Positions 48,927-57,996 of a stretch of 64,000 bases of DNA are shown one piece after another. The stretch is taken from assembly GCF_024138715.1 (NCBI RefSeq), contig NZ_CP092074.1, forward strand, positions 3,162,001 through 3,226,000, given 5' to 3'. The translations under genes and the position numbers were made by a program. The notes under the pieces were generated by a model. The model did no database searches and had not been told where the DNA came from. It was given only the letters and a program-made list of their open reading frames with translations. The DNA comes from Emticicia sp. 21SJ11W-3. Its GTDB lineage: Bacteria > Bacteroidota > Bacteroidia > Cytophagales > Spirosomataceae. The number at the start of each line of letters is the position of its first letter. Position 1 is the first letter of the stretch.

Positions 48927-48970
48927 CGACAGAGTCTCCCGTAAGCCCAGGCCGGAACCAAGCAAGGGGA
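48927..48970 (+). repeat. REP-like palindrome 1, left part (split by IS110 copy 1)
   Basis: CGACAGAGTCTCCCG ... CAAGGGGA. The right arm resumes at 50251 (GACTCTGTCGC) after IS110 copy 1. Confidence 0.85.
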
Positions 48971-48992
48971 TTTCTATGATAAAGACAAAGAA

Positions 48993-49994
48993 CTAGTTCA
49001 AGGAAAAGTTAAATTTTTCTTGTTTGCGAATCAGCGCAGAAACTATATGTAAAATTTTGTTTCTAACAGCATTCAAAGCCGACATTTTGCTTTTATCTTC
49101 GGCAAGTTTTCTTTCATAATATTGCTTAATAGGTTGACACCATTTGACCGTAGATAGCGCGGCCATATGCAGTGCTTGCTTTAGTTTTTTATTAGCCAGA
49201 TGTGAAACTCGTGGTGTATTTTTAAGACTACTCCCTGATTCTTTTTTAAAAGGTACTACACCTGCATGACAAGCAATTTTTCTTGGATCAGAAATCGTTT
49301 CAAAGTTATTAGTTGCCGTAATCAGGGCAATGGCAGTTTGTTTGCCAACACCTGGAATACTTTCAATCAAATCCTTGTTATTGTCAACTTGCAGATCTTC
49401 TTTGACTATTTCATCCAACTCTTTGTCAATTTTGGCAATACTTTTGGCTAATCCTGCTATTGAATCCTGTAAGGTCTTCTTTAAAGATGCATGGTCTTTT
49501 GTAGAAACAAATCCCTTCATTTCATTGACATGCCGTTCTATCTGATGCTTCTGTTTGAGTAATAATTGTCTAGCAGATTGTAAACGTTTCATCTTTACAA
49601 CCACTTTATTATCAGGTTTATATATCCTGATTGTTGGAAGATTCTTTCTTAAATACTGGGCAATTAGATACGCATCAGCACTATCTGATTTCTCTCGCCT
49701 AATACCCTTTGAGTTAGCAATGTCTAGGGCATTAGATACCACCAAATCTAATCCTTTTTCGACCGCATAAACTTTAAAAGGATTTGAATAGATACCCGTA
49801 TTTTCCATCCCAAATAATATCGAGCCTAAGTCTTTATACCCTGCATTCTTCAGATTTTTTAACAAACCAGAAATGTCTTTTGCTGTATTGTCAATCTGCC
49901 CATTTAATAGAACTTTGTCCATTGAATCAATTAGCGAATAATCAATCGTCAATTTTGATACATCCATTCCTAAAAATAATGTCTTGGTTTTCAT
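48993..49994 (-). CDS. IS110-family DEDD transposase/recombinase, copy 1
   Basis: 333 residues, identical to the other four copies; see the plus-strand copy at 56209-57210 for domains and choice of start. No frame disruption. Confidence 0.92.
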   Translation of the reverse strand: MKTKTLFLGMDVSKLTIDYSLIDSMDKVLLNGQIDNTAKDISGLLKNLKNAGYKDLGSILFGMENTGIYSNPFKVYAVEKGLDLVVSNALDIANSKGIRREKSDSADAYLIAQYLRKNLPTIRIYKPDNKVVVKMKRLQSARQLLLKQKHQIERHVNEMKGFVSTKDHASLKKTLQDSIAGLAKSIAKIDKELDEIVKEDLQVDNNKDLIESIPGVGKQTAIALITATNNFETISDPRKIACHAGVVPFKKESGSSLKNTPRVSHLANKKLKQALHMAALSTVKWCQPIKQYYERKLAEDKSKMSALNAVRNKILHIVSALIRKQEKFNFSLN

Positions 49995-50026
49995 ATCTTT
50001 GTAATAGTTGAAGAATAAGAAGTTGG

Positions 50027-50218
50027 TTTCGATAGATTGACACATGTCTTTAATAATAGGGTCGGTAGCCCTGAATTTCTATTTGTGTTGACTATCGAAG
50101 TAGCGAGGGTAGGACTATATCCCCTTATAGGCTCCAAGCCTATGACTCTAATTAGTTTCCCTACCCCCCACAACTTCTATAATTGTTAATCTTACCAAAG
50201 ATAACCTTTCTTGGTTTT
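50027..50218 (-). ncRNA. Bridge RNA candidate, IS110 copy 1
   Basis: Same sequence and fold as described for 55985-56176 in copy 5. Located in the 5' non-coding end of the element and running into the first codons of the longer open frame. Confidence 0.75.
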
Positions 50219-50295
50219 GTACAGCTTGCTTTTCATTTACAAATCTAAAAGACTCTGTCGCAGAAACTGTCATAACAAATAGAAAAAAATTGTCC

Positions 50296-50392: not shown

Positions 50393-50435
50393 CGACAGAG
50401 TCTCCCGTAAGCCATGCCGGAACTAAGCAAGGGGA
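50393..50435 (+). repeat. REP-like palindrome 3, left part (split by IS110 copy 2)
   Basis: CGACAGAGTCTCCCG to CAAGGGGA; the right arm continues at 51716 (GACTCTGTCGC). Confidence 0.85.
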
Positions 50436-50457
50436 TTTCTATGATAAAGACAAAGAA

Positions 50458-51459
50458 CTAGTTCAAGGAAAAGTTAAATTTTTCTTGTTTGCGAATCAGC
50501 GCAGAAACTATATGTAAAATTTTGTTTCTAACAGCATTCAAAGCCGACATTTTGCTTTTATCTTCGGCAAGTTTTCTTTCATAATATTGCTTAATAGGTT
50601 GACACCATTTGACCGTAGATAGCGCGGCCATATGCAGTGCTTGCTTTAGTTTTTTATTAGCCAGATGTGAAACTCGTGGTGTATTTTTAAGACTACTCCC
50701 TGATTCTTTTTTAAAAGGTACTACACCTGCATGACAAGCAATTTTTCTTGGATCAGAAATCGTTTCAAAGTTATTAGTTGCCGTAATCAGGGCAATGGCA
50801 GTTTGTTTGCCAACACCTGGAATACTTTCAATCAAATCCTTGTTATTGTCAACTTGCAGATCTTCTTTGACTATTTCATCCAACTCTTTGTCAATTTTGG
50901 CAATACTTTTGGCTAATCCTGCTATTGAATCCTGTAAGGTCTTCTTTAAAGATGCATGGTCTTTTGTAGAAACAAATCCCTTCATTTCATTGACATGCCG
51001 TTCTATCTGATGCTTCTGTTTGAGTAATAATTGTCTAGCAGATTGTAAACGTTTCATCTTTACAACCACTTTATTATCAGGTTTATATATCCTGATTGTT
51101 GGAAGATTCTTTCTTAAATACTGGGCAATTAGATACGCATCAGCACTATCTGATTTCTCTCGCCTAATACCCTTTGAGTTAGCAATGTCTAGGGCATTAG
51201 ATACCACCAAATCTAATCCTTTTTCGACCGCATAAACTTTAAAAGGATTTGAATAGATACCCGTATTTTCCATCCCAAATAATATCGAGCCTAAGTCTTT
51301 ATACCCTGCATTCTTCAGATTTTTTAACAAACCAGAAATGTCTTTTGCTGTATTGTCAATCTGCCCATTTAATAGAACTTTGTCCATTGAATCAATTAGC
51401 GAATAATCAATCGTCAATTTTGATACATCCATTCCTAAAAATAATGTCTTGGTTTTCAT
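50458..51459 (-). CDS. IS110-family DEDD transposase/recombinase, copy 2
   Basis: 333 residues, identical to the other copies; see 56209-57210. Confidence 0.92.
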   Translation of the reverse strand: MKTKTLFLGMDVSKLTIDYSLIDSMDKVLLNGQIDNTAKDISGLLKNLKNAGYKDLGSILFGMENTGIYSNPFKVYAVEKGLDLVVSNALDIANSKGIRREKSDSADAYLIAQYLRKNLPTIRIYKPDNKVVVKMKRLQSARQLLLKQKHQIERHVNEMKGFVSTKDHASLKKTLQDSIAGLAKSIAKIDKELDEIVKEDLQVDNNKDLIESIPGVGKQTAIALITATNNFETISDPRKIACHAGVVPFKKESGSSLKNTPRVSHLANKKLKQALHMAALSTVKWCQPIKQYYERKLAEDKSKMSALNAVRNKILHIVSALIRKQEKFNFSLN

Positions 51460-51491
51460 ATCTTTGTAATAGTTGAAGAATAAGAAGTTGG

Positions 51492-51683
51492 TTTCGATAG
51501 ATTGACACATGTCTTTAATAATAGGGTCGGTAGCCCTGAATTTCTATTTGTGTTGACTATCGAAGTAGCGAGGGTAGGACTATATCCCCTTATAGGCTCC
51601 AAGCCTATGACTCTAATTAGTTTCCCTACCCCCCACAACTTCTATAATTGTTAATCTTACCAAAGATAACCTTTCTTGGTTTT
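51492..51683 (-). ncRNA. Bridge RNA candidate, IS110 copy 2
   Basis: Same sequence as the candidate at 55985-56176, minus strand. Confidence 0.75.
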
Positions 51684-51758
51684 GTACAGCTTGCTTTTCA
51701 TTTACAAATCTAAAAGACTCTGTCGCACAGGCCTTTCAAAAAAACAATAACTTTGTCC

Positions 51759-51811
51759 CGACAGAGTCTCCCGTGTGCGAATGCCAAAGCCTGGCAAGGG
51801 GACTCTGTCGC
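51759..51811 (+). repeat. REP-like palindrome 4, intact
   Basis: CGACAGAGTCTCCCG ... GGCAAGGGGACTCTGTCGC, immediately upstream (24 bp) of the truncated RAYT copy. Confidence 0.85.
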
Positions 51812-51835
51812 AGTGGCCTTTCAAATAAACAATAA

Positions 51836-52008
51836 ATGCTGACACCCATGGCTGTAAGAGTAAGACAAAATCAAAAAGAAGCGGTTTATTTCGTGACATT
51901 CACCTGTTACAACTGGATACCCCTTTTTGAAATCACTCAGTTATATGATAACCTCTATCAATGGCTTAACCTACTGAATCGGCAGAACATCCGGACGTTG
52001 GGTTATAA
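51836..52008 (+). pseudogene. Truncated duplicate of the RAYT gene
   Basis: The first ~57 codons match the intact RAYT at 53476 apart from one visible substitution (GTG for TTG at codon 20). The match also extends upstream through GCAGTGGCCTTTCAAATAAA. After GGGTTAT the sequence jumps into REP palindrome 5, so the HLH motif and the catalytic Tyr are missing. The open frame continues to 52186 only by reading REP sequence. Confidence 0.85.
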
Positions 52009-52115: not shown

Positions 52116-52160
52116 CAGACAGAGTCTCCCGTGTGCGAATGCCAAAGGCTGGCAAGGGGA
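52116..52160 (+). repeat. REP-like palindrome 6, left part (split by IS110 copy 3)
   Basis: CAGACAGAGTCTCCCG ... GGCAAGGGGA; right arm at 53441 (GACTCTGTCGC). The first bases deviate from CCCGACAG. Confidence 0.8.
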
Positions 52161-52182
52161 TTTCTATGATAAAGACAAAGAA

Positions 52183-53184
52183 CTAGTTCAAGGAAAAGTT
52201 AAATTTTTCTTGTTTGCGAATCAGCGCAGAAACTATATGTAAAATTTTGTTTCTAACAGCATTCAAAGCCGACATTTTGCTTTTATCTTCGGCAAGTTTT
52301 CTTTCATAATATTGCTTAATAGGTTGACACCATTTGACCGTAGATAGCGCGGCCATATGCAGTGCTTGCTTTAGTTTTTTATTAGCCAGATGTGAAACTC
52401 GTGGTGTATTTTTAAGACTACTCCCTGATTCTTTTTTAAAAGGTACTACACCTGCATGACAAGCAATTTTTCTTGGATCAGAAATCGTTTCAAAGTTATT
52501 AGTTGCCGTAATCAGGGCAATGGCAGTTTGTTTGCCAACACCTGGAATACTTTCAATCAAATCCTTGTTATTGTCAACTTGCAGATCTTCTTTGACTATT
52601 TCATCCAACTCTTTGTCAATTTTGGCAATACTTTTGGCTAATCCTGCTATTGAATCCTGTAAGGTCTTCTTTAAAGATGCATGGTCTTTTGTAGAAACAA
52701 ATCCCTTCATTTCATTGACATGCCGTTCTATCTGATGCTTCTGTTTGAGTAATAATTGTCTAGCAGATTGTAAACGTTTCATCTTTACAACCACTTTATT
52801 ATCAGGTTTATATATCCTGATTGTTGGAAGATTCTTTCTTAAATACTGGGCAATTAGATACGCATCAGCACTATCTGATTTCTCTCGCCTAATACCCTTT
52901 GAGTTAGCAATGTCTAGGGCATTAGATACCACCAAATCTAATCCTTTTTCGACCGCATAAACTTTAAAAGGATTTGAATAGATACCCGTATTTTCCATCC
53001 CAAATAATATCGAGCCTAAGTCTTTATACCCTGCATTCTTCAGATTTTTTAACAAACCAGAAATGTCTTTTGCTGTATTGTCAATCTGCCCATTTAATAG
53101 AACTTTGTCCATTGAATCAATTAGCGAATAATCAATCGTCAATTTTGATACATCCATTCCTAAAAATAATGTCTTGGTTTTCAT
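52183..53184 (-). CDS. IS110-family DEDD transposase/recombinase, copy 3
   Basis: 333 residues, identical to the other copies; see 56209-57210. Confidence 0.92.
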   Translation of the reverse strand: MKTKTLFLGMDVSKLTIDYSLIDSMDKVLLNGQIDNTAKDISGLLKNLKNAGYKDLGSILFGMENTGIYSNPFKVYAVEKGLDLVVSNALDIANSKGIRREKSDSADAYLIAQYLRKNLPTIRIYKPDNKVVVKMKRLQSARQLLLKQKHQIERHVNEMKGFVSTKDHASLKKTLQDSIAGLAKSIAKIDKELDEIVKEDLQVDNNKDLIESIPGVGKQTAIALITATNNFETISDPRKIACHAGVVPFKKESGSSLKNTPRVSHLANKKLKQALHMAALSTVKWCQPIKQYYERKLAEDKSKMSALNAVRNKILHIVSALIRKQEKFNFSLN

Positions 53185-53216
53185 ATCTTTGTAATAGTTG
53201 AAGAATAAGAAGTTGG

Positions 53217-53408
53217 TTTCGATAGATTGACACATGTCTTTAATAATAGGGTCGGTAGCCCTGAATTTCTATTTGTGTTGACTATCGAAGTAGCGAGGGT
53301 AGGACTATATCCCCTTATAGGCTCCAAGCCTATGACTCTAATTAGTTTCCCTACCCCCCACAACTTCTATAATTGTTAATCTTACCAAAGATAACCTTTC
53401 TTGGTTTT
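53217..53408 (-). ncRNA. Bridge RNA candidate, IS110 copy 3
   Basis: Same sequence as the candidate at 55985-56176, minus strand. Confidence 0.75.
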
Positions 53409-53475
53409 GTACAGCTTGCTTTTCATTTACAAATCTAAAAGACTCTGTCGCAGTGGCCTTTCAAATAAACAATAA

Positions 53476-54051
53476 ATGCTGACACCCATGGCTGTAAGAG
53501 TAAGACAAAATCAAAAAGAAGCGGTTTATTTCTTGACATTCACCTGTTACAACTGGATACCCCTTTTTGAAATCACTCAGTTATATGATAACCTCTATCA
53601 ATGGCTTAACCTACTGAATCGGCAGAACATCCGGACGTTGGGTTATGTTTTTATGCCAAATCACCTGCATTGCATGATTTACTTACCCAAAGATGCTCCT
53701 GAACTCTACAAAGTTATCAGTAACGCAAAAAGATTTATGGCCTATGAAATTGTCAAGCGGCTAGAACAAGCTAATAATTCAGAGTTATTGGAAAGGCTCG
53801 AAAATGCTGTAAAAGCCAGAGAAGCAAAAAAAGGAAAGTTACATCAGGTATTCAATGAGTCTTACGATGCCAAAGAATGTTTTAATGAAGATTTTATACT
53901 GCAAAAGCTAAATTACATGCATAAAAACCCATTAAGTGGTAAGTGGAATCTGGCAGCAAATTATCTGGCGTATGCTTATTCATCTGCCAGATTTTATAAT
54001 TTGAACGAGAAAGATGCGAAAGTAGAACTGACTCACTATCTGGATATTTAG
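53476..54051 (+). CDS. REP-associated tyrosine transposase (RAYT, Y1/IS200-like)
   Basis: 191 residues (or 187 from the second Met). A single-domain Y1 HUH-type nuclease: VYFLTFTCYNWIPLF as the first strand, VFMPNHLHCMIYL with the HxH metal pair (residues 63-65), and LNYMHKNPLSGKWNLA with the catalytic Tyr at about 147, followed by AYSSARFY. RAYTs are single-copy domesticated relatives of IS200 transposases that act on REP palindromes. This one is flanked by the window's REP-like repeats on both sides, which supports the pairing. IS110 copy 3 lies 34 bp upstream and may affect its expression. Confidence 0.92.
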   Translation: MLTPMAVRVRQNQKEAVYFLTFTCYNWIPLFEITQLYDNLYQWLNLLNRQNIRTLGYVFMPNHLHCMIYLPKDAPELYKVISNAKRFMAYEIVKRLEQANNSELLERLENAVKAREAKKGKLHQVFNESYDAKECFNEDFILQKLNYMHKNPLSGKWNLAANYLAYAYSSARFYNLNEKDAKVELTHYLDI

Positions 54052-54405: not shown

Positions 54406-54448
54406 CGACAGAGTCTCCCGTAAGCCCGGCCGGAACTAAGCAAGGGGA
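54406..54448 (+). repeat. REP-like palindrome 10, left part (split by IS110 copy 4)
   Basis: CGACAGAGTCTCCCG ... AGCAAGGGGA; right arm at 55729 (GACTCTGTAGCGG) with one altered region. Confidence 0.8.
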
Positions 54449-54470
54449 TTTCTATGATAAAGACAAAGAA

Positions 54471-55472
54471 CTAGTTCAAGGAAAAGTTAAATTTTTCTTG
54501 TTTGCGAATCAGCGCAGAAACTATATGTAAAATTTTGTTTCTAACAGCATTCAAAGCCGACATTTTGCTTTTATCTTCGGCAAGTTTTCTTTCATAATAT
54601 TGCTTAATAGGTTGACACCATTTGACCGTAGATAGCGCGGCCATATGCAGTGCTTGCTTTAGTTTTTTATTAGCCAGATGTGAAACTCGTGGTGTATTTT
54701 TAAGACTACTCCCTGATTCTTTTTTAAAAGGTACTACACCTGCATGACAAGCAATTTTTCTTGGATCAGAAATCGTTTCAAAGTTATTAGTTGCCGTAAT
54801 CAGGGCAATGGCAGTTTGTTTGCCAACACCTGGAATACTTTCAATCAAATCCTTGTTATTGTCAACTTGCAGATCTTCTTTGACTATTTCATCCAACTCT
54901 TTGTCAATTTTGGCAATACTTTTGGCTAATCCTGCTATTGAATCCTGTAAGGTCTTCTTTAAAGATGCATGGTCTTTTGTAGAAACAAATCCCTTCATTT
55001 CATTGACATGCCGTTCTATCTGATGCTTCTGTTTGAGTAATAATTGTCTAGCAGATTGTAAACGTTTCATCTTTACAACCACTTTATTATCAGGTTTATA
55101 TATCCTGATTGTTGGAAGATTCTTTCTTAAATACTGGGCAATTAGATACGCATCAGCACTATCTGATTTCTCTCGCCTAATACCCTTTGAGTTAGCAATG
55201 TCTAGGGCATTAGATACCACCAAATCTAATCCTTTTTCGACCGCATAAACTTTAAAAGGATTTGAATAGATACCCGTATTTTCCATCCCAAATAATATCG
55301 AGCCTAAGTCTTTATACCCTGCATTCTTCAGATTTTTTAACAAACCAGAAATGTCTTTTGCTGTATTGTCAATCTGCCCATTTAATAGAACTTTGTCCAT
55401 TGAATCAATTAGCGAATAATCAATCGTCAATTTTGATACATCCATTCCTAAAAATAATGTCTTGGTTTTCAT
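54471..55472 (-). CDS. IS110-family DEDD transposase/recombinase, copy 4
   Basis: 333 residues, identical to the other copies; see 56209-57210. Confidence 0.92.
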   Translation of the reverse strand: MKTKTLFLGMDVSKLTIDYSLIDSMDKVLLNGQIDNTAKDISGLLKNLKNAGYKDLGSILFGMENTGIYSNPFKVYAVEKGLDLVVSNALDIANSKGIRREKSDSADAYLIAQYLRKNLPTIRIYKPDNKVVVKMKRLQSARQLLLKQKHQIERHVNEMKGFVSTKDHASLKKTLQDSIAGLAKSIAKIDKELDEIVKEDLQVDNNKDLIESIPGVGKQTAIALITATNNFETISDPRKIACHAGVVPFKKESGSSLKNTPRVSHLANKKLKQALHMAALSTVKWCQPIKQYYERKLAEDKSKMSALNAVRNKILHIVSALIRKQEKFNFSLN

Positions 55473-55504
55473 ATCTTTGTAATAGTTGAAGAATAAGAAG
55501 TTGG

Positions 55505-55696
55505 TTTCGATAGATTGACACATGTCTTTAATAATAGGGTCGGTAGCCCTGAATTTCTATTTGTGTTGACTATCGAAGTAGCGAGGGTAGGACTATATCC
55601 CCTTATAGGCTCCAAGCCTATGACTCTAATTAGTTTCCCTACCCCCCACAACTTCTATAATTGTTAATCTTACCAAAGATAACCTTTCTTGGTTTT
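55505..55696 (-). ncRNA. Bridge RNA candidate, IS110 copy 4
   Basis: Same sequence as the candidate at 55985-56176, minus strand. Confidence 0.75.
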
Positions 55697-55830
55697 GTAC
55701 AGCTTGCTTTTCATTTACAAATCTAAAAGACTCTGTAGCGGAGGCCTATAATTAAAGCAGTTGAGAGCATATATTCAATACCTACTATGATGAAGGAAAT
55801 ATTTCCGCTTTGGGGAATAAAAAGTAGAGA

Positions 55831-55871: not shown

Positions 55872-55984
55872 CCAATGACTAGAAATTCATAAAGAAGAAA
55901 ATGACTAACCTTAAAAAACAATCCCAAACCCAAAGGCCACAACGACAGAGTCTTTTAGATTTGTAAATGAAAAGCAAGCTGTAC

Positions 55985-56176
55985 AAAACCAAGAAAGGTT
56001 ATCTTTGGTAAGATTAACAATTATAGAAGTTGTGGGGGGTAGGGAAACTAATTAGAGTCATAGGCTTGGAGCCTATAAGGGGATATAGTCCTACCCTCGC
56101 TACTTCGATAGTCAACACAAATAGAAATTCAGGGCTACCGACCCTATTATTAAAGACATGTGTCAATCTATCGAAA
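55985..56176 (+). ncRNA. Bridge RNA candidate of IS110 copy 5
   Basis: Three stem-loops are readable. A 5' hairpin: ACCAAG (55988-55993) with TTTGGT (56004-56009). A target-binding loop: outer stem GGGTAGG (56037-56043)/CCTACCC (56090-56096) and inner stem ATAGGCT (56060-56066)/AGCCTAT (56070-56076), with internal-loop strands ending AGAGTC (56054-56059) and starting AAGGGGA (56077-56083). A donor-binding loop: outer stem TTCGATAG (56104-56111)/CTATCGAA (56168-56175), inner hairpin AGGG/CCCT, and strands ATAGAAATTC (56121-56130) and TTAAAGA (56150-56156). AGAGTC equals the left target half plus core. AAGGGGA is complementary to the core plus right half (TCCCCTT). The donor strands resemble the element ends ATAGAAATC and, inverted, TCTTT. 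Confidence 0.82.
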
Positions 56177-56208
56177 CCAACTTCTTATTCTTCAACTATT
56201 ACAAAGAT

Positions 56209-57210
56209 ATGAAAACCAAGACATTATTTTTAGGAATGGATGTATCAAAATTGACGATTGATTATTCGCTAATTGATTCAATGGACAAAGTTCTATTAAA
56301 TGGGCAGATTGACAATACAGCAAAAGACATTTCTGGTTTGTTAAAAAATCTGAAGAATGCAGGGTATAAAGACTTAGGCTCGATATTATTTGGGATGGAA
56401 AATACGGGTATCTATTCAAATCCTTTTAAAGTTTATGCGGTCGAAAAAGGATTAGATTTGGTGGTATCTAATGCCCTAGACATTGCTAACTCAAAGGGTA
56501 TTAGGCGAGAGAAATCAGATAGTGCTGATGCGTATCTAATTGCCCAGTATTTAAGAAAGAATCTTCCAACAATCAGGATATATAAACCTGATAATAAAGT
56601 GGTTGTAAAGATGAAACGTTTACAATCTGCTAGACAATTATTACTCAAACAGAAGCATCAGATAGAACGGCATGTCAATGAAATGAAGGGATTTGTTTCT
56701 ACAAAAGACCATGCATCTTTAAAGAAGACCTTACAGGATTCAATAGCAGGATTAGCCAAAAGTATTGCCAAAATTGACAAAGAGTTGGATGAAATAGTCA
56801 AAGAAGATCTGCAAGTTGACAATAACAAGGATTTGATTGAAAGTATTCCAGGTGTTGGCAAACAAACTGCCATTGCCCTGATTACGGCAACTAATAACTT
56901 TGAAACGATTTCTGATCCAAGAAAAATTGCTTGTCATGCAGGTGTAGTACCTTTTAAAAAAGAATCAGGGAGTAGTCTTAAAAATACACCACGAGTTTCA
57001 CATCTGGCTAATAAAAAACTAAAGCAAGCACTGCATATGGCCGCGCTATCTACGGTCAAATGGTGTCAACCTATTAAGCAATATTATGAAAGAAAACTTG
57101 CCGAAGATAAAAGCAAAATGTCGGCTTTGAATGCTGTTAGAAACAAAATTTTACATATAGTTTCTGCGCTGATTCGCAAACAAGAAAAATTTAACTTTTC
57201 CTTGAACTAG
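56209..57210 (+). CDS. IS110-family DEDD transposase/recombinase, copy 5
   Basis: 333-residue IS110 recombinase. The RuvC-like DEDD domain shows LFLGMDVSK (Asp11), FGMENTGIYS (Glu64) and KSDSADAYLIA (Asp104, Asp107). A coiled-coil linker follows. The C-terminal Tnp_20 domain has IESIPGVGKQTAIALI and CHAGVVPFKKESGSS with the probable catalytic Ser near 253, then the PRVSHLANKKLKQAL helix. I start at ATG 56209 rather than the in-frame ATG 56158, because 56158 lies inside the donor-loop stem of the bridge RNA and the family begins with this first strand. The long 5' and short 3' non-coding ends place it in the IS110 rather than the IS1111 group. Confidence 0.93.
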   Translation: MKTKTLFLGMDVSKLTIDYSLIDSMDKVLLNGQIDNTAKDISGLLKNLKNAGYKDLGSILFGMENTGIYSNPFKVYAVEKGLDLVVSNALDIANSKGIRREKSDSADAYLIAQYLRKNLPTIRIYKPDNKVVVKMKRLQSARQLLLKQKHQIERHVNEMKGFVSTKDHASLKKTLQDSIAGLAKSIAKIDKELDEIVKEDLQVDNNKDLIESIPGVGKQTAIALITATNNFETISDPRKIACHAGVVPFKKESGSSLKNTPRVSHLANKKLKQALHMAALSTVKWCQPIKQYYERKLAEDKSKMSALNAVRNKILHIVSALIRKQEKFNFSLN

Positions 57211-57232
57211 TTCTTTGTCTTTATCATAGAAA

Positions 57233-57279
57233 TCCCCTTGCTTACACTTTATCCCTCATACACGGGAGACTCCGTCGGA
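57233..57279 (-). repeat. REP-like palindrome 12, right part (split by IS110 copy 5)
   Basis: TCCCCTTGCTTACAC ... CACGGGAGACTCCGTCGG; its other end, CGACAGAGTC, is at 55943-55952. Confidence 0.8.
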
Positions 57280-57526: not shown

Positions 57527-57567
57527 AACATTCATAACTGCCACAACAAATAACAATAAAATTGTCC

Positions 57568-57619
57568 CGACAGAGTCTCCCGTAAGCCCGGCCGGAACCA
57601 AGCAAGGGGACTCTGTCGC
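57568..57619 (+). repeat. REP-like palindrome 15, intact, at the broken exporter gene
   Basis: CGACAGAGTCTCCCG ... AGCAAGGGGACTCTGTCGC. Its right edge is the point where the C39 peptidase/ABC exporter gene loses homology. Confidence 0.85.
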
Positions 57620-57996
57620 AGAGGATCTTTTGTGTAGGTAAGCAATTCTTTGCCCGGATCAGCCACATGAACAGTTATATCTCTGCCAAAACGGCTTTTT
57701 GAAATCTTATAAACCACCACAAAATGATTCTGCTGCCAGTGCACTATACATGGCAAAGGTGCTTCTGAAACGAGTTTTTCAAAGCTTACTTTTACGGCCA
57801 ATGTTTTAAAACCAATATCTTCAGCGGCTTGGGCAATACCCAATAAAGAAACACCCTCTTTGCCAATTTCTGCTTTGTTGCGCAGTGTCTGTATGCTCAG
57901 ACTCTTCTTATAGTGCTTTGCCACCATGCGTAAGCAGGTAGGGCCGCAATCCATCGCGTCGTGTTGCTGTATATAAGGAAATTTAGTACTTGGCAC
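57620..57996 (-). pseudogene. C39 peptidase domain of a peptidase-containing ABC exporter, truncated
   Basis: About 125 native residues. The frame then enters the REP palindrome and adds about 29 junk residues before a stop at 57532. The C39 domain is complete: QQHDAMDCGPTCLRMVAKHY (catalytic Cys 17), HWQQNHFVVVYKI (catalytic His) and VHVADPGKELLTYTK (Asp). The membrane and ATPase domains, normally another ~550-600 residues, are missing. The start lies 4 bp after the stop of the TlpA-like gene, so the two formed an operon. Intact relatives cleave double-glycine leaders and export peptides. The peptidase alone could in principle still fold. Confidence 0.8.

Follow-up and report, generated by a model that had tools for sequence, protein, structure and literature searches.

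An IS110 Element of Emticicia with a Candidate Bridge RNA Aimed at a Palindromic, REP-Like Repeat

A 64,000-nucleotide stretch of the Emticicia sp. 21SJ11W-3 genome (hereafter the window, i.e., the whole stretch of DNA analysed) carries an insertion sequence of the IS110 group that very probably encodes a bridge RNA aimed at the palindromic repeat in which the element sits, with the guide probably made mainly from the excised circle. Bridge RNAs of IS110 elements are known from IS621 of Escherichia coli (PMC11208160, PMC11208158), and REPs are named among IS110 targets (PMC11208160). Since the literature already covers both the bridge RNAs of IS110 elements and the targeting of REPs (PMC11208160, PMC1525189), the novelty of this case is limited; it contributes a further element, a separate check of the guide rule, and a split promoter that appears to be of the Bacteroidota type.

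Results

The element and its homologues

The features of the element are collected in Table 1. The genome (5,177,490 bases in one contig) holds seven copies, five of them in the window, and all seven are identical throughout their 1,284 bp and have the same ends. Both domains of the IS110 group, the RuvC-like DEDD domain and Transposase_20, are present in the recombinase, and a profile of its homologues searched against PDB matched the transposases of IS621 (8wt6; E = 9.7e-48) and ISCro4 (E = 1.4e-47). Together with the match to the RNA model described below, these results bear out the IS110 identity given to the element in a preliminary description made from the sequence alone, and the limits proposed there hold, with a TC core at each of them. 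The true start of the recombinase is likely position 56209, clear of the bridge RNA, since homologues start near residue 19 to 23 and the open reading frame (ORF) from 56158 would overlap the RNA. The non-coding left end is long, about 207 to 258 nt depending on the ORF start, and the right end is short, 24 nt, with the cores included in both.

Table 1. Positions in the window of the IS110 element, its copies, and its sequence features
Feature	Position	Strand	Evidence
IS110-group insertion sequence, intact	55951..57234	+	1,284 bp, both TC cores included; ends resemble homologues' ends
Core TC, left junction	55951..55952	+	Common to both junctions; once in uninterrupted repeats
TAGATTTG, putative -7 half of Bacteroidota-type promoter, left end	55956..55963	+	Exact TAnnTTTG here in 32/48
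Bridge RNA, target- and donor-binding structures	56036..56168	+	Covariance model that excludes this element: score of 46 bits (E = 5.2e-12) over model positions 1-132
Left target guide AGAGTC	56054..56059	+	Identical to target left half and core; family tests
Right target guide AAGGGGA	56077..56083	+	Complement of TCCCCTT, right junction; family tests
Left donor guide ATAGAAAT (then TC, to 56130)	56121..56128	+	Identical to element right end; co-varies in homologues
Right donor guide AAAGA	56152..56156	+	Complement of left-end TCTTT
IS110 recombinase ORF	56158..57210	+	Pfam DEDD_Tnp_IS110, 6.5e-21; Transposase_20, 4.2e-20
TTTG, putative -33 half of promoter, right end	57214..57217	+	TTG 20 nt from left-end TA after joining, 44/48
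Core TC, right junction	57233..57234	+	Junction comparison
Identical copy	54447..55730	-	RNA model match 55513-55645
Identical copy	52159..53442	-	RNA model match 53225-53357
Identical copy	50434..51717	-	RNA model match 51500-51632
Identical copy	48969..50252	-	RNA model match 50035-50167

Homologues were sought in 98 genomes (own included), 38 of which had a match, in 390 genomes of the order (own included), 70 of which had a match at 1e-40, and in contigs, where a scan with the single protein found no relative and an alignment-based scan found at least 589 stretches and at least 469 relatives, the best 80 being kept. By their titles these best 80 contig matches come from what we take to be Bacteroidota taxa, except for L095, a Lachnospiraceae metagenome-assembled genome. 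Within the host family, genomes with a homologous element appear to include Runella, Spirosoma, Dyadobacter, Larkinella and Rudanella. The collection comprised 138 loci, the seven own copies among them; in 69 of these, again with the seven, both ends and the donor loop were located by motif, and 48 remained after near-identical RNAs were dropped. As the motif list behind this step was a short one, elements with unusual ends are missing from this sample. Leaving out L071 as truncated gave 47 rows, and leaving out L088 and L097 gave alignment A2 (45 sequences); alignment A3 (43 rows) was made without L001 on purpose and without L022, which has a loop insertion. Keeping one element per target gave a distinct-target set of 18, 16 of them in A2. 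The recombinase of the Emticicia element is 33 to 41% identical to those of the 47 other nonredundant elements compared.

All copies occupy one point of a palindromic repeat

All seven copies are inserted at a single position in one arm of a palindrome that is REP-like, with the consensus CGACAGAG-TC-CCCTTGC. Before TTTTAG, the left junction reads ACAGAG-TC in six copies and GGCAGAG-TC in one; after AAA, the right junction reads TC-CCCTTGC in six and TC-CCTTTTC in copy L002, whose repeat is diverged. Uninterrupted repeats have a single TC at the insertion point, which indicates, for 7/7 copies, that insertion was specific to this site, took place at a short core and left no duplication of the target.

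Intact palindromes were defined by an exact pattern (AGAGTC, 22 to 48 bases, GAGACTCTG), diverged copies falling outside the count. The genome has 24 of them, and the reversed control has none, so that the repeat is a dispersed short palindrome, as for a REP. This number, which counts exact-pattern copies only, compares with the more than 100 copies per genome usual for REPs (PMC2817692). The genome has three Y1_Tnp loci, and in a search for RAYT linkage no ACAGAGTC arm was found in their fetched flanks. All 24 exact-pattern palindromes fall within 2,912,288-3,423,086 of the host contig (G000:C1), 0.51 Mb or one tenth of the chromosome, and the window copies are inside this span. The preliminary description had spoken of a REP insertion site: the guide does spell the palindromic repeat, and the repeat itself, with 24 exact-pattern copies in 0.51 Mb and no arm near the Y1_Tnp loci, is better termed only REP-like.

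It is possible, though we consider it unlikely, that duplication and recombination between repeats, and not separate RNA-guided insertions, gave rise to some of the additional copies, as five of the seven lie within about 8.3 kb and an exact 206-bp flank duplicate stands beside one copy. Against this, the outer flanks of the copies differ, two copies are separated from the cluster by about 150 and 190 kb, one of the five cluster copies is inverted, and the co-variation described below is independent of these copies. As to the duplicate itself (51801-52006 = 53441-53646), one of its members adjoins an IS copy and the other lies between two repeats, which suggests a repeat- or IS-mediated event.

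Another trace of the repeat is seen at 57532-57996 of the window (minus strand), where a 154-residue ORF has a Peptidase_C39 domain (Pfam, 7.8e-33, residues 5-125). Since its final residues are encoded by the palindromic repeat (57568-57618, by eye), this gene may once have been longer and have been cut by the repeat.

The left end encodes a conserved two-loop RNA structure

The 5' end of the element had been described as folding into a 5' hairpin and two internal-loop structures. The two internal-loop structures are confirmed by the homologues: RNAalifold on alignment A2 gave 23 pairs, 22 of them with compensatory changes on both sides, and an independent covariance model (43 homologues, this element left out) recovered each of the five window copies with E = 5.2e-12, and the hit ranked after them scored 4.4 bits (E = 4.9). 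The default structure of this model, R1, is the donor loop alone (10 pairs) and was used as such in the window search. In A2, 92.2% of the cells are paired, compared to a mean of 73.8% (SD, 0.8) after shuffling, with 0 of 500 shuffles reaching the alignment on each of five measures, and pairing is at most 50.5% when partner columns are displaced by one to three positions. A fold of this element as a single sequence predicts the stem of the 5' hairpin ahead of the two loops and leaves AGAGUC and AAGGG unpaired in an internal loop. Folds of the element alone surpass those of shuffled sequences by a modest margin (z = -1.87 and -2.39), so that folding by itself is no proof of a bridge RNA. Rfam gave no match over the window at gathering thresholds.

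Donor guides follow the ends of the element

The resemblance between the strands of the second loop and the ends of the element, which had been remarked earlier, is exact over 8 nt for ATAGAAAT, and the right strand matches TCTTT of the left end, TCTTTTAG. Left donor guide and right end are the same over 8 bases in 41 of the 48 nonredundant elements and differ at the last base in the other seven. These exact matches are in part a product of the motif list by which ends and donor loop were found; the informative evidence is the co-variation among variants. All 12 loci with a ATGGAAAT (CATGGAAAT) right end have ATGGAAAT in the loop region (7/7 nonredundant), the three CATAGGAAT right ends listed each go with an ATAGGAA loop, and L023 has ATAGATTT in both places. 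L043, with the right end ATAGAAAT and the loop ATAGGAA, disagrees and counts against donor pairing. On the opposite side, the first base of the left end and the right donor guide occur in three states, each complementary and two of them seen once: C with AAGG (46 elements), T with AAAGA (this element), and A with AATGG (L105).

Joining the ends would assemble a -33/-7 promoter

The Bacteroidota promoter consensus was taken from PMC7366714 and PMC9723704, the latter placing the -7 box at -12 to -5; PMC2483708 is also cited for this type of promoter. When the two ends of each element are joined, as in the circle junction of this element, AAATCTTTTAG, TTG stands 20 nt before the left-end TA in 44 of the 48 elements (65/69 with redundancy), the exceptions being L097, L105, L118 and L122. 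This spacing occurs in 0/48 chromosomal left flanks and in 0/7 of those of the own copies. A looser left box is present in 48/48 elements, but is part of how the left end was found.

That this pattern reflects shared descent or coding constraint and no promoter is improbable in our view. In its favor, TTG lies mostly inside the last codons of the ORF, further right-end columns are conserved (46/48 at -14 and 44/48 at -37), and the -33 motif was not found in F. johnsoniae RNA-seq data in the account of PMC7366714. However, the place of TTG is constant though the distance of the stop codon from the end varies: it is kept in 5/6, 37/38, 1/1 and 1/1 elements with the stop codon at 4, 11, 23 and 36 nt, respectively, hence in different frames, and is not seen in the single elements with the stop codon at 35 and 51 nt (0/1 each). 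Moreover, the TTG columns (48, 47 and 44 of 48) stand out from their neighbors, i.e., the ten columns before (16 to 31) and the two after (33 and 22).

A promoter across joined ends has already been described for IS110 elements (PMC11208160, PMC11187229), and a 2022 review holds that junction promoters should be host dependent, citing the -33/-7 motifs of B. fragilis in a passage that does not bring in IS110 (PMC9330008). No description of a -33/-7 type promoter in IS110 elements was found in the portions of text covered by the literature search, and the word "bacteroid" is absent from the main text of PMC11208160. The joined-end arrangement of IS110 seems to be present here with the phylum's own type of promoter. 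As the two halves come to stand 20 nt apart only once the ends are joined, the excised circle is probably the main template for transcription of the bridge RNA.

Target guides follow the insertion sites

The preliminary description had held that the strands of the first loop match and complement the two halves of the occupied target. This is correct for this element: both strands reach the TC core, and overlapping them at TC gives the target predicted from the RNA, AGAGTCCCCTT, an 11-mer seen eight times in the window compared to 0.03 expected. A chance origin of the 11-mers in the window is ruled out by these figures. Across the genome there are 20 uninterrupted sites (reversed control, 0), 16 of them within intact palindromes. 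A locus at 3,307,500-3,311,500 of the contig (L142) has 11 uninterrupted target sites, seven of them spaced 147 bp apart as a tandem array, and 0/7 IS copies.

Both arms of the intact palindrome have AGAGTC, on opposite strands, and CCCCTT follows the left arm in 16/24, so that the left target guide by itself would not distinguish the arms and the right one would. All seven copies are in the arm able to continue into CCCCTT, a 1 in 128 outcome if arms were indifferent and copies independent, and none is in the other arm, where AGAGTC on the opposite strand is followed by TC.

Among the homologues, the right target guide is exact (6/6) against its own flank in 14 of the 16 distinct-target elements, compared to 2/240 mismatched pairings; over the whole alignment it is exact in 31/45 rows and inexact in 14. 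With the register fixed by the alignment, it scores 5.69 of 8 on its own flank and 3.44 on other flanks (0/20,000 permutations), the own flank ranking top in 37/45 rows. Of four registers examined for the left target guide, the best is reported: at register 2 the own flank scores 5.11 and others 3.27 of 8 (0/20,000 permutations), with the own flank top in 18/45 rows only. Register 0 gave 1.91 versus 2.07 (no signal), register 1, where the guide of this element fits, 2.89 versus 2.05, and register 3 3.60 versus 2.73. The longest matches, summed over both sides, average 12.30 for own and 9.59 for other flanks (n = 47; 0/20,000 permutations), with own higher on either side and own top for the sum in 18/47 rows; on the left flank of the 18 distinct-target elements the values are 6.33 and 4.64 (0/20,000 permutations).

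Loop strands that fail to co-vary with insertion sites among homologues had been named beforehand as what would count against the proposal, and the comparison run on the homologues (14/16 versus 2/240) did not refute it. No near relative with another target was found among the genomes and contigs searched, so there is no recent retargeting event to cite. In homologue L096, a short sequence like the homologues' own targets, GGCATCGGCCGTCCGA, was noticed by eye inside the bridge RNA region.

That the recombinase alone recognizes the palindrome by DNA structure or sequence, the loop matches being incidental, is very improbable: the palindrome is strong (-27.8 kcal/mol when folded as an RNA) and REPs serve as insertion sites for several other IS elements (PMC1525189), but the loop strands co-vary with differing insertion sites across homologues, and the arm matched by the right guide is the only one used in 7/7 copies. 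RNA-guided targeting of the palindrome is thus preferred, and the earlier proposal of a naturally REP-programmed IS110 is supported for a REP-like repeat by guide-flank co-variation and by the 20 predicted target sites found uninterrupted.

Core dinucleotides

TC is common to target and donor in this element. Among the 48 nonredundant elements the left-junction core is GC in 22, CC in 15, TC in five (this element included), AC in five and GG in one. The right junction is AAATC in 48/48 by script label, a label that puts AAA ahead of the final base of the end matched; that end, but not the C, was set by the motif search. In homologues the right target guide keeps the donor form of the first core base. 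In one homologue group, whose target has core GC, GCACGGGCGGCCC occurs 4, 12, 5 and 0 times in four genomes, with reversed controls at 0; an extra C in the targets of this group was considered and rejected, as GCACGGGCCGGCCC occurs 0 times in the four genomes. These counts and the core tallies indicate that dispersed repeats are the targets of some homologues as well, and that C is often all that donor and target have in common. We lean, with some reserve, toward the view that in the Bacteroidota IS110 branch the bridge RNA would be switched on only with a joined -33/-7 promoter, and that most cores would share the donor-target C alone (TC versus GC, CC or AC), with the donor form of the first base retained in the right target guide.

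Discussion

Comparison of sequences establishes the ends of the element, its insertion sites, the RNA structure, the co-variation of the four guides and the promoter halves. We propose that the left end encodes a bridge RNA whose first loop (AGAGTC/AAGGGGA) would pair around the TC core with each strand of the palindromic repeat and whose second loop (ATAGAAAT/AAAGA) would pair with the ends of the element itself once these are joined. The element would leave the chromosome as a circle, excised by the recombinase, and circle and repeat would recombine at the core without target duplication. End joining would assemble the -33/-7 promoter that is absent from the inserted copy, and the guide RNA would come mainly from the circle. 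We infer circle formation, transcription, pairing in the cell and recombination.

The closest known system is IS621, which has a recombinase of the same family, a 5' bridge RNA with the target loop ahead of the donor loop (PMC11208160), left guides of 8 to 9 nt and right guides of 4 to 7 nt, and a promoter reassembled at the circle junction. Unlike IS621, the Emticicia element belongs to another phylum, has core TC and not CT, is directed at a different repeat, and has putative promoter halves of the Bacteroidota type where those of IS621 are of the sigma-70 type; the sequence similarity is only distant. ISPa11, ISPpu9 and ISPpu10 are likewise specific to REPs (PMC1525189, PMC8450116), and ISPpu9 has seven copies in REPs, as this element has seven in REP-like repeats, although these are other elements in other repeats. 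Two small RNAs regulate the ISPpu9 transposase (PMC8450116). For ISEc21 (IS110) and ISEc11 (IS1111), the elements with a seekRNA, a non-coding region is needed for circle formation and transposition, and a promoter arises from the joined ends, as proposed here; they differ in their -35/-10 promoter motifs and in their targets (PMC11187229).

This element is a separate instance, from a different phylum, of an IS110 guide RNA that predicts insertion sites in the genome, the arm of the palindrome included, and it makes a Bacteroidota pair of recombinase and RNA available for testing. The conserved halves at the two ends suggest that the circle-closure promoter has been retained in a form suited to the sigma factor of this phylum.
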